The position numbers and the translations under genes were made by a program. Positions 11,832-15,497 of a DNA stretch of 17,555 nucleotides are shown here, in pieces. The DNA comes from Clostridium sp. CAG:413 (GTDB lineage: Bacteria; Bacillota; Clostridia; Oscillospirales; Acutalibacteraceae). The notes beneath the pieces are model-generated. The model searched no databases. It worked only from the letters and a program-made list of their open reading frames with translations, and was not told the origin of the DNA. Positions within the stretch are counted from its first letter, which is position 1. Each line of letters begins with the position of its first letter. Where the stretch lies: positions 1 through 17,555 of the forward strand of contig FR888216.1 of the NCBI GenBank assembly GCA_000431775.1, given 5' to 3'.

Positions 11832-13433
11832 ATGAAAACTGAAAAAATAAAAGAGTCGATACTCGGCTGCAAGACATCGCTCGGTATTGAACTCGGTTCA
11901 ACAAGAATCAAGGGTATACTTGTTGACGAAAACAACGAAGTCATCGCGTCGGGCGGTTATTCATGGGAAAATAAGCTCGAAAACGGCATCTGGACATATC
12001 ATCTCAACGATGTTTGGACGGGTATGCGCGAATGTTACAGAACCCTTGCCGAGGATGTCAGAGGCAAATATGATATTGAATTGACTTCTGTCGGCGCAAT
12101 GGGCATTTCCGGCATGATGCACGGATATCTTGTGTTCGACAAAGAGGGCAGACAGTTAGCTGATTTCAGAACATGGCGAAACACCGTCACCGAGCGCTCG
12201 GCGGCTGAGCTTTTCGAGCTTTTCGGGTTCAATATTCCTCAGCGCTGGAGCATAGCTCACCTTGACCGCGCCATACTCAACGGCGAGGAGCATATCAAAA
12301 ACATCGACTTTATGACAACGCTCGCGGGCTATGTACACTGGATGCTGACGGGAGAGAAGGCAATCGGTATCGGCGAAGCATCCGGTATGTTCCCGATAAA
12401 CAGCGAAACTCACGATTTCGATGAAACGATGATAAAGAAGTTTGATTCGAGAGTCGCAGACAAAAATCTTCCTTGGAAGCTGCGCGGCATATTGCCGACA
12501 GTACACAGCGCAGGAGATTTTGCCGGCAAGCTTACGGAAGAGGGCGCAAAGCTCCTTGATCCGACAGGAAAGCTCAAACCCGGTATTCCGTTCTGCCCGC
12601 CGGAGGGCGACGCAGGCACCGGCATGGTGGCAACGAACAGCGTTGCTCAGAGAACGGGCAATGTATCTGCTGGAACATCGATATTTGCAATGATAGTCCT
12701 CGAGAAGCCGCTTTCAAAGGTGTATCCCGAGATAGATATGGTAACAACGCCGGACGGCAGTCCCGTTGCGATGGTGCACTGCAACAACTGCACGACCGAT
12801 CTCGATTCGTGGATAGGTCTGCTCAAAGAGACCGTTGAGCTGATGAGCGGGAGCGTCGATGTGCCGAAGCTCTACGACACATTCTATAACAAAGCTCTCG
12901 AGGGCGCTCCGGACTGCGGCGGGCTGCTCTCCTATAACTACTATTCCGGCGAGCACACAACAGGATTTGAAGCCGGCAGACCGCTTTTCACAAAACTTCC
13001 GGACAGCAAGATGAATCTTGCAAACTTTGCCCGTGCAATACTCTTCTCATCCATGGCAACTTTAAAATTCGGCATGAACATACTGACCGAAAAAGAGTTT
13101 GTCCGCGTTGACAGGCTTCTCGGTCATGGCGGACTGTTCAAAACTCCCGGAGTCGGTCAGAAGCTCATGGCTGCCGTGCTCGAAACTCCCGTTGCCGTTA
13201 TGTCAACGGCAGGCGAGGGCGGCGCGTGGGGAATTGCTCTGCTTGCATCATATATGAAGAACCGTGCGGACGGCGAATCACTTGACAGCTTCCTCGATTC
13301 AAAAGTATTCGGCGATATGCTCGGAGACAGCGTAGCTCCCGACGCTGAAGACGCCGAAGGATTCAAAAAATATATGGAGCGTTACAGAGCGGGTCTCGCT
13401 ATAGAACGCGCGGCAGTTGACAATCTGAACTGA
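11832..13433 (+). CDS. FGGY-family carbohydrate kinase (xylulokinase-like)
   Basis: This 533-residue ATP-dependent sugar kinase has an actin-like two-domain fold. The N-terminal phosphate-1 loop reads [16 protein letters not shown] (from about residue 17). [13 protein letters not shown] and [13 protein letters not shown] are equivalents of substrate-site segments. PEGDAGTGM places the catalytic base at Asp260. [10 protein letters not shown] and [12 protein letters not shown] are ATP-site segments, and [15 protein letters not shown] is the adenosine motif of FGGY kinases. It resembles xylulo- and ribulokinase-like proteins of Clostridia, but the sugar is not readable from sequence. AGGAG (11821-11825) with 6 nt spacing supports the ATG. 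A separate terminator follows, so it is transcribed alone, divergently from the acyltransferase operon. Together with the PfkB kinase and the symporter it points to sugar catabolism. Confidence 0.88.
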
Positions 13434-13443
13434 ATATTTTTTC

Positions 13444-13482
13444 AGCCCTGTGCTTTCAAAAGCGCGGGGCTTTTTATTTTTT
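13444..13482 (+). terminator. Intrinsic terminator after the FGGY kinase gene
   Basis: AGCCCTGTGCTT (13444-13455) pairs with AAGCGCGGGGCT (13460-13471) over 12 bp with two G-U pairs and a 4-nt loop. The run TTTTTATTTTTT follows. It insulates the spoIIG promoter, which starts about 11 nt downstream. Confidence 0.9.
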
Positions 13483-13492
13483 CACCCTTTGA

Positions 13493-13526
13493 TTTGACAA
13501 AAAAGACCTCGGCGGCGGCTTATAAT
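13493..13526 (+). promoter_or_regulatory. spoIIG-type promoter: wide spacer plus Spo0A box
   Basis: Perfect consensus hexamers TTGACA (13494-13499) and TATAAT (13521-13526) are separated by 21 nt, too far for ordinary sigma-A use. The Bacillus subtilis spoIIG promoter is known for a 22-bp spacer that needs Spo0A~P for activation. TTTGACAAA (13493-13501), read on the minus strand as TTTGTCAAA, matches the Spo0A box consensus TTTGTCRAA exactly and overlaps the -35, as does a Spo0A site in B. subtilis. The start of spoIIGA lies 28 nt downstream of the -10. No second clear box was found upstream. Confidence 0.8.
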
Positions 13527-13554
13527 TGAGTCATACAGTTCCGGGAGGTGCACG

Positions 13555-14562
13555 ATGAGCAATGTTATATATGTCGATATACTGCTGATGATAAATCTGC
13601 TCGTCAACTTTCTGATGCTGTCGGCGGCGGGTCTTTTGGTGAAAACTCCGACGCGCAGTTGGCGTATTTTGCTCTCCGCCGCAATAGGGGCAGCTTATTC
13701 GCTGATAATATTTCTGCCCGATATGAATCTGTTCTTTTCGATAGCTCTTCGCGTTATCTGTTTTGCGGCGATGCTTTTTACTGCGTTCTCTATACGCTCG
13801 GTTAAAGAATTTCTCAGAGCGGGCGGCGGCTTTCTGATGGCAAACTTCGCCTTTGCGGGAATCACGCTCGCCATATGGCTGATATTCAAGCCTGACGGAC
13901 TTACATACAAAAACGGTGCGGTGTATTTTGATATCAGCGCAGTGACACTGTTATTGACCTCCGCCGCCTGCTATGTTGTTATACGGCTCATATCTTATTT
14001 TATGCGCCGCAATGCGCCAGACAGCCACACGGCAACAGTCAGAATAGATTATCGCGGAAAAGAAGCCGAATGCGCCGCTCTCATAGATACGGGTAGCTCG
14101 CTGAAAGAGCCGTTTTCTTCATATCCCGCGATAGTGTTTGAATACGGCGCGATAGCCTCTGTTCTGCCGGATGAAATAAAAGAACTCGTGCGCAGGGAGA
14201 TAAAAGAAGACGAGGCATATGCATGCCGCGGTGTCAGGTTTATAAGCTTCAGGTCGGTCGGCGGGAGCGGGCTTCTTCCGGCAATAAAAATTGATAAAGT
14301 AACAGTAAAAAATGCCAAGGGTATTTTTGTATGCAGCGAGACTTATGCCGCGATATACAATGGCTCACTGTCCGGCGGCGAGTATTCGGCACTCATAGGA
14401 AACAATTTCTTTGACAGAGCGGAAAGGGGAGGCTCAAAAAATGAAAAAGCTGAAAGCGGTAATACAAAAACTGATAAACCGTTTTCTCAACCGCAGAGAC
14501 CGGGGCGAGGTACACTACATAAACGGCTACGAGATACTGCCCGCCCCGCTGAAAAAAGATGA
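13555..14562 (+). CDS. spoIIGA: Sporulation sigma-E processing peptidase SpoIIGA
   Basis: SpoIIGA is the membrane aspartic protease that removes the pro-peptide of sigma-E in the mother cell after septum formation. The N-terminal half has five or so hydrophobic helices (about residues 4-28, 36-55, 59-78, 90-112 and 122-148). The C-terminal soluble domain carries [12 protein letters not shown] with catalytic Asp178, and ends its recognisable part at SALIGNNFF (about 286). The ATG has GGGAGG (13543-13548) with 6 nt spacing. Oddly, the frame does not stop near the sigE start. It runs about 49 more codons, overlapping sigE by 122 nt with a basic, low-complexity tail. B. subtilis SpoIIGA has about 309 residues, against 335 here. 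The tail may be real, or may reflect loss of the original stop or a sequence error. Promoter and neighbour make the identity firm. Confidence 0.93.
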
Positions 14563-15151
14563 GGAGCGTGAGATATTCGAGCGTATCGAGGCGGGCGACG
14601 AATCCGCGCGCGAGCCGCTAATAGTACACAATCTCAGGCTCGTGGTCTATATAGCGAGGAAGTTTGAAAACTCCGGAGTAGGAATAGAAGATCTGATATC
14701 AATAGGCACTATCGGACTGATAAAGGCGGTCAACACATTCAGACCGTCAAAGAACATAAAGCTCGCGACATATGCCTCGCGGTGCATCGAAAACGAGATA
14801 CTCATGTTCCTGCGAAAGACAAATAATATAAGAAACGAGATTTCGCTCGATGAGCCGCTGAACGTGGATTGGGACGGGAACGAACTGCTTCTGTCCGATA
14901 TTCTCGGCAGTGAACCGGATACGGTAAATCGCGGCATAGAGGCGGAGGACGAAAAAAGTCTGCTCCTGCGCACCGTTGATGCCCTTGCCGACCGCGACAA
15001 GCTTATAATGCGGATGCGGTTCGGACTCGGCGGCGGAAAGGAATATACGCAAAAGGAAGTTGCAGATATGCTAGGCATATCGCAGAGCTACATATCAAGG
15101 CTTGAAAAAAGGATTATAGAACGCCTGAAAAGAGAAATGAATGTCGTGTGA
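14441..15151 (+). CDS. sigE: RNA polymerase sporulation sigma factor E precursor
   Basis: Sigma-E directs early mother-cell transcription during sporulation and is made as an inactive precursor. The 236-residue product starts [15 protein letters not shown], an amphipathic basic pro-sequence, and reaches [15 protein letters not shown], aligned with the SpoIIGA cleavage region (about residues 24-28). Region 2 is highly conserved ([49 protein letters not shown]). Region 4 ends in the helix-turn-helix [28 protein letters not shown] (14425-14432) with 8 nt spacing selects ATG 14441, and homology agrees. An in-frame TTG at 14411 adds ten non-homologous residues and is rejected. It shares the spoIIG promoter with spoIIGA and overlaps that gene. 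A terminator-like hairpin begins 8 nt after the stop. Confidence 0.96.
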
Positions 15152-15158
15152 TTCGACG

Positions 15159-15199
15159 CACCCTCAGCGGCATATAATGCCGTTGGGGGTGATTTTTTT
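15159..15199 (+). terminator. Terminator-like hairpin that contains the ylmC ribosome binding site
   Basis: CACCCTCAGCGGCAT (15159-15173) pairs with ATGCCGTTGGGGGTG (15177-15191) over all 15 positions with two G-U pairs and a 3-nt loop. Seven T residues follow (15193-15199). This fits an intrinsic terminator for spoIIGA-sigE. The right arm also contains GGGGGTGA, the only plausible ribosome binding site for the TTG start at 15198, and the T-run overlaps that start codon. The same element could therefore end transcription and mask translation of the next gene. Confidence 0.8.
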
Positions 15200-15497
15200 G
15201 AACTGCTGCGTGACGGATCTGAGAAACAAGCAGGTTATAAATCAAAGGGACGGGAATATACTCGGCCCTGTGTCGGATATTGAAGTTGACACTTGCTCGG
15301 GAAAAGTAGTTGCAATTATCGTATTCGGCAGACCGAAATGTATGGGGCTGCTCGGACGATGCGACGATATAAGAATATGTTGGGAAGACATAAAGGTTAT
15401 AGGCGAGGATGCCGTGCTCGTGTGCTACAATCAGCAGGCGTGCTGTGCGCCGCCGAGAAAAGGAGGTAGATTTTGCGACATATTCAATTCTTTTTGA
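15198..15497 (+). CDS. YlmC/YmxH-family protein (PRC-barrel)
   Basis: This small protein of 99 residues belongs to the YlmC/YmxH family found near sporulation and cell-division genes in Bacillota. Its molecular role is not established. The PRC-barrel-like pattern is visible: TDLRNKQVINQRDG, then ILGPVSDIEVD, GKVVAIIVFG, a GLLGR step, IRICWEDIKVIGEDAVLV. The start is TTG with GGGGGTGAT upstream (8-nt spacing); the longer frame from 15141 reads through the hairpin and has no family match. It contains ten cysteines, including two CC pairs, unusually many. In B. subtilis ylmC also lies downstream of spoIIGA-sigE, but sigG comes between them, and it does not here. An AAGGAGG near the 3' end (15460-15466) leads to no sizeable gene. 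Confidence 0.8.
   Translation: MNCCVTDLRNKQVINQRDGNILGPVSDIEVDTCSGKVVAIIVFGRPKCMGLLGRCDDIRICWEDIKVIGEDAVLVCYNQQACCAPPRKGGRFCDIFNSF

Follow-up and report, generated by a model that had tools for sequence, protein, structure and literature searches.

A predicted Spo0A-activated sigma-A promoter with a wide −35/−10 gap upstream of spoIIGA and sigE in Clostridium sp. CAG:413

The spoIIGA–sigE locus and its promoter elements

The stretch of DNA analysed here (17,555 nucleotides from Clostridium sp. CAG:413, referred to in its full length as the window) carries spoIIGA and, directly downstream of it, sigE (Table 1). In a profile search the SpoIIGA protein reached 224.8 bits with PF03419, for which the cut-off is 28.4. 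With the stricter NCBIfam equivalog model TIGR02854 it scored 160.8 bits, under the cut-off of 209.55, and it is therefore regarded as a diverged member. The longest sigE open reading frame begins at a TTG at 14411. This frame scored 366.4 bits with NF006158 (cut-off 339) and also exceeds the cut-off of TIGR02835, so that two SigE models are passed. The attribution of the promoter to spoIIG, made in the original prediction, agrees with this gene order.

The spoIIGA frame stays open for about 120 nt beyond the likely sigE start codon (14441–14562) and its profile match stops near 14404. Either the genes really overlap or the frame changes near the end of SpoIIGA. On the 3′ side of sigE, a YlmC/YmxH-type sporulation protein (TIGR02888) is encoded at 15141–15497. 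A second sigma gene follows sigE within 600 nt in 25 of 81 loci, mostly from Bacilli, in a count that includes the window and some short contigs; the window is not one of the 25.

Upstream of the promoter, the terminator hairpin is located 3′ of an open reading frame for an FGGY kinase (11832–13433) and ends 22 nt before TTGACA. It closes the kinase gene and sets spoIIG apart from this upstream neighbour.

The promoter stretch itself, read directly from the window sequence, is ...GATTTGACAAAAAAGACCTCGGCGGCGGCTTATAATTGAG... Both hexamers are perfect and lie 21 nt apart, exactly as had been predicted, and 28 nt separate the −10 element from the spoIIGA ATG at 13555. No sigma-70-like promoter with a gap of 16–18 nt was found in 13380–13600. 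Reading the −10 as an extended element was rejected, since direct reading finds no TGn 5′ of TATAAT.

Table 1. Features of the spoIIG region, with positions in the window and the basis of each assignment
Feature	Position	Strand	Basis
Intrinsic terminator hairpin, 12 pairs, T-rich tail	13444–13471	+	1 found vs 0.2 expected
Spo0A-box-like TTTGTCAAA over the −35 position	13493–13501	−	Direct reading; relatives keep GACA there
TTGACA, hexamer at the −35 position	13494–13499	+	Direct reading and pair count in the window
21-nt spacer, A run then GC-rich stretch	13500–13520	+	Direct reading; most frequent gap length in relatives
TATAAT, perfect sigma-A −10 element	13521–13526	+	Direct reading and pair count in the window
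Expected transcript start zone (A at 13533 or 13535)	13531–13535	+	Predicted from the −10 position
Ribosome-binding site GGGAGGTG	13543–13550	+	Direct reading
spoIIGA, protease activating pro-sigma-E, contains DTGSS	13555–14562	+	PF03419 and translation
sigE, likely ATG at 14441	14441–15151	+	GGGGAGG (14426–14432) precedes the ATG

The gap between the two promoter elements in relatives

The gap was surveyed in 166 spoIIGA upstream regions, of which 78 are linked to SigE (the window included) and 88 come from a class-wide sample. The SigE-linked set derives from the best 80 of at least 592 loci found with the SigE protein, which belong to Oscillospiraceae, other Clostridia and Bacilli. Three of the 80 had no SpoIIGA ORF match and were dropped; the other 77 and the window make up the 78 regions. 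The second set samples the class of locus L001 (Clostridia), in which SpoIIGA was present in 90 of 118 genomes; L001's own genome and the upstream region of L177, which runs into a contig end, were then removed. Gaps of 12–27 nt were scanned with one fixed score, the weights of which were chosen by the analyst, and 200 nt were covered in the class-wide set.

The most frequent best gap in the SigE-linked set is 21 nt (44/78), followed by 22 nt (14/78). Identical scoring of 474 upstream regions of other genes in those loci gave a peak at 17 nt (53 cases), versus 22 cases at 21 nt. The class-wide set behaves alike, with 21 nt best in 51/88 regions and 22 nt in 9/88. The prediction that the arrangement is conserved far outside Bacillus is thus borne out in both sets.

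A count that is tied to the −10 element alone leads to the same picture. A perfect TATAAT or TATACT occurs in 130 of the 166 regions, and 13 of these have more than one. Relative to these hexamers, GACA is found 75 times at a gap of 21 nt, 16 times at 22 nt and at most seven times at any other gap between 5 and 47 nt, which makes GACA at these first two gaps the strongest signal by far. Among dereplicated regions with exactly one perfect −10, GACA lies at 21 nt in 62/101 and at 22 nt in 11/101; for control upstreams with one perfect −10 the values are 1/76 at 21 nt and 7/76 at 17 nt. Perfect TTGACA/TATAAT pairs with a gap of 15–26 nt number 27 in total, 24 at 21 nt and three at 22 nt. The related genomes in these counts are not independent and the Fisher tests, which treat them as such, serve as a guide only. 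The exact pattern, in which a gap of 21 or 22 nt separates GACA and a perfect −10, is present in 91/166 regions and missing in 75/166, some of which hold near-variants (GGCA, TACA) or an imperfect −10.

Upstream of spoIIGA a wide gap is the normal state, with 21 nt as its commonest value, and the layout of the window is not an oddity. We found no published survey of this gap across Clostridia in a literature search that lacked most subscription journals.

The distribution of the two gap lengths was examined on a SigE tree that comprises 66 promoters. On this tree, about ten switches between 21 and 22 nt are counted (bootstrap 9–10, shuffled mean 15.3), and at least five of them are forced by well-supported branches. 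The label is still clustered, as none of 500 shuffles was as low. A division into 21 nt as a trait of Clostridia and 22 nt as a trait of Bacillus was rejected, given the about ten changes and the gap of 21 nt in 10 of the 19 Bacilli in the tree. The 21 nt of the window are the common state and no departure from Bacillus. The original prediction had called the window gap one base pair shorter than in B. subtilis; this difference marks no peculiarity.

The B. subtilis spoIIG promoter has a 22-bp gap and several Spo0A boxes, one of them over the −35 position. The window resembles it in the operon served, the sigma-A-like −10 element, the over-long gap and the Spo0A box over the −35 position. It differs by its gap of 21 nt, by one box in place of several, and by the perfect TTGACA and TATAAT. 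Among the relatives, B. safensis (L032) shows TTGACA-22-TATACT upstream of spoIIGA. The B. subtilis spoIIE promoter, which also depends on sigma-A and Spo0A, has the same gap of 21 as the window in front of a different gene.

For C. difficile spoIIGA, GTGACA and TATAAT boxes have been mapped upstream by RNA-seq, and sigE expression is reported to need Spo0A (PMC3789822, PMC3485338). The Spo0A DNA-binding domain of this species is described as binding the spoIIGA upstream DNA weakly, above 200 nM (PMC3485338). TATAAT is shared with the window, whereas the upstream hexamer differs in its first base (GTGACA versus TTGACA).

Upstream regions of spoIIE-like genes were analysed for the same geometry. 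Here 17 of 30 loci were used; 13 were dropped because their profile match started past position 7. The best gap is 21 nt in 8/17 and 22 nt in 5/17, and 11 of these 13 regions have the GACA core, the two without it (L115 and L123) being among the five cases with 22 nt. As only 3/17 of the spoIIE-like proteins passed the curated SpoIIE cut-off, the shared geometry is taken as support, not as proof. The Spo0A_C domain was present in all 12 relative genomes searched (12/12).

The element at the −35 position

The original prediction described an exact Spo0A box on the −35. The overlap with the −35 stands, and TTTGTCAAA fits TTTGTCRAA, the looser form of the box, but its match to the core TGTCGAA is not exact and has one mismatch, at G5. 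According to PMC3485338, which gives this core, G5 is among three specifically contacted bases, and C. difficile Spo0A has an about 10-fold lower affinity for the abrB promoter after a G5A change. Matches to TTTGTCAAA with at most one mismatch occur 12 times in the window versus 5.2 expected. Furthermore, any consensus −35 resembles a box because TTGACA reverse-complemented is TGTCAA. The window box, taken alone, is not independent evidence, and it therefore has to be judged from relatives.

In the relatives, the unselected hexamer at gap 21 has the composition T.56 T.44 G.69 A.74 C.82 A.82. The control hexamers at gap 17, which are also unselected and include TATAATs that are no promoters, give T.43 T.54 G.51 A.45 C.22 A.42. 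The 3′ half of the hexamer is stronger at gap 21 and weaker in the controls. At gap 21, C occupies the second position in 43/117 cases, versus about 4/76 in the controls, the latter number being back-calculated from a rounded frequency; this agrees with what the R of TGTCRAA predicts. The seven-base counts speak against a pure box reading, as the full core TTCGACA is rare (3/85) and TTTGACA is the commonest 7-mer (26/85). Judged from these compositions, the element at the −35 position behaves as a Spo0A box which is sometimes, as in the window, also a perfect −35.

These data bear on the question of whether a plain sigma-A promoter could account for the locus. TTGACA would then be the true −35 in spite of the 21-nt gap, by means of a bent or twisted spacer, Spo0A would be uninvolved and the likeness to a box incidental. 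Such a promoter would fit the perfect −35 hexamer of the window, where the box reading has no independent standing, and the rank of TTGACA as the commonest hexamer among GACA promoters (27/85). However, the relatives keep GACA and vary in the two bases before it (GTGACA, ATGACA, CCGACA, ACGACA, TCGACA), which is the opposite of the gap-17 controls. The wide gap is also retained where an ordinary promoter would revert to 17 nt, and it is common to spoIIE-like genes. We consider a plain sigma-A promoter very improbable.

Downstream of the GACA core, an A/T tract (about ANTTT) is conserved at positions +7 to +12 of the element, with T at +9 in 90/117 cases. It possibly marks the seat of a displaced sigma region 4. 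The window has an A run in place of the conserved T-tract after the box. A similar A/T tract after GACA is also visible in several spoIIE-like upstream regions.

The end of the window box coincides with the motif CAAAAA (13498–13503). In C. difficile spoIIE, a CamA methylation site of this sequence adjoins a predicted Spo0A box close to the −35 and is reported to raise expression, and CamA is described as specific to C. difficile (PMC13395437). Because of this specificity, CAAAAA at the window box may be a coincidence. Among GACA promoters of spoIIGA upstream regions, 9/91 have it in the equivalent place.

A second Spo0A box is weakly seen in the promoters of relatives. Averaged over 70 dereplicated promoters, a generic box score is elevated at two upstream offsets, 10 bp (z 5.7) and 13 bp (z 3.7), with values from −3.0 to 2.6 at other offsets. 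Individual loci display either spacing: L042, L173, L188 and others have a TTCGACA box 13 bp upstream, and L002 and L004 follow the 10-bp spacing. In the window, no clear second box was found at offsets of 7–27 upstream, where the top score is 3.5 (offsets 13 and 15; −2.2 at offset 10) against 8.6 for the box itself. The earlier remark on only one clear box is accurate for the window.

Could Spo0A, or another activator, act on a real −10 from other sites, so that the hexamer at the −35 position adds little here? The window box is solitary and without G5, and the additional boxes that some relatives have at 10 or 13 bp upstream would suit such an arrangement. Nevertheless, besides the −10 used for anchoring, few columns are as strongly conserved as the GACA core, and the window retains it. 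Activation from elsewhere is in our view very improbable. A chance pairing of the two hexamers, with spoIIG transcribed by read-through or from a more distant upstream start, is extremely improbable, since TTGACA-N15..24-TATAAT occurs once in the window and 0.01 pairs are expected there for the ten gap lengths together (dinucleotide shuffles, 3/200 of which had one), and since this pair stands 28 nt before a start codon, behind a terminator and in the geometry of the relatives.

A putative Spo0A-dependent switch and its generality

We regard it as highly probable that 13493–13526 is the sigma-A promoter of the spoIIGA–sigE operon and belongs, like the spoIIG and spoIIE promoters of B. subtilis, to the Spo0A-activated type. 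The window promoter is a typical, well-conserved member of this promoter class.

At such promoters in B. subtilis, Spo0A contacts sigma region 4. In the window, RNA polymerase with sigma-A would recognise the perfect −10. With 21 nt in place of about 17 between the two elements, the −35 position would lie beyond the normal contact of sigma region 4 and would serve mainly as a binding site for Spo0A. Bound Spo0A~P may then contact sigma region 4 and aid the formation of the open complex, and the spoIIG operon would fire only at high Spo0A~P. We infer Spo0A binding, Spo0A dependence and the sigma contact for the window promoter, and its wide gap probably makes it depend on Spo0A. As the original prediction supposed, a gap of 21 nt may leave the promoter silent unless it is helped. 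In B. subtilis, the spoIIG promoter is reported to be activated by Spo0A~P (PMC3084206, PMC12090719), which acts after the closed complex according to earlier work cited in PMC12090719.

A broader proposal is put forward tentatively, as a possibility to which we do not commit. Spo0A–sigma-A promoters may have followed one fixed rule since Bacilli and Clostridia split: in spoIIGA and spoIIE, a Spo0A box replaces the −35, with 21 or 22 nt between its GACA core and the −10, and a conserved A/T tract 7–12 nt into the element lies at the place that sigma region 4 would occupy in a promoter of normal spacing. If this were true, the ‘−35’ would be no −35 at all, and the choice between TTGACA and TCGACA would be a means of tuning affinity for sigma against affinity for Spo0A.

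The data indicate that a geometry established in a single model species is old and general among endospore formers, among them many that are represented only by metagenome-assembled genomes from animal guts. It also offers a simple rule (GACA, 21 or 22 nt, TATAAT or TATACT) for likely direct targets of Spo0A and sigma-A where the weak box motif is too unspecific. For the Clostridia-related bacterium studied here, the promoter is most likely the switch for an early operon of spore formation.
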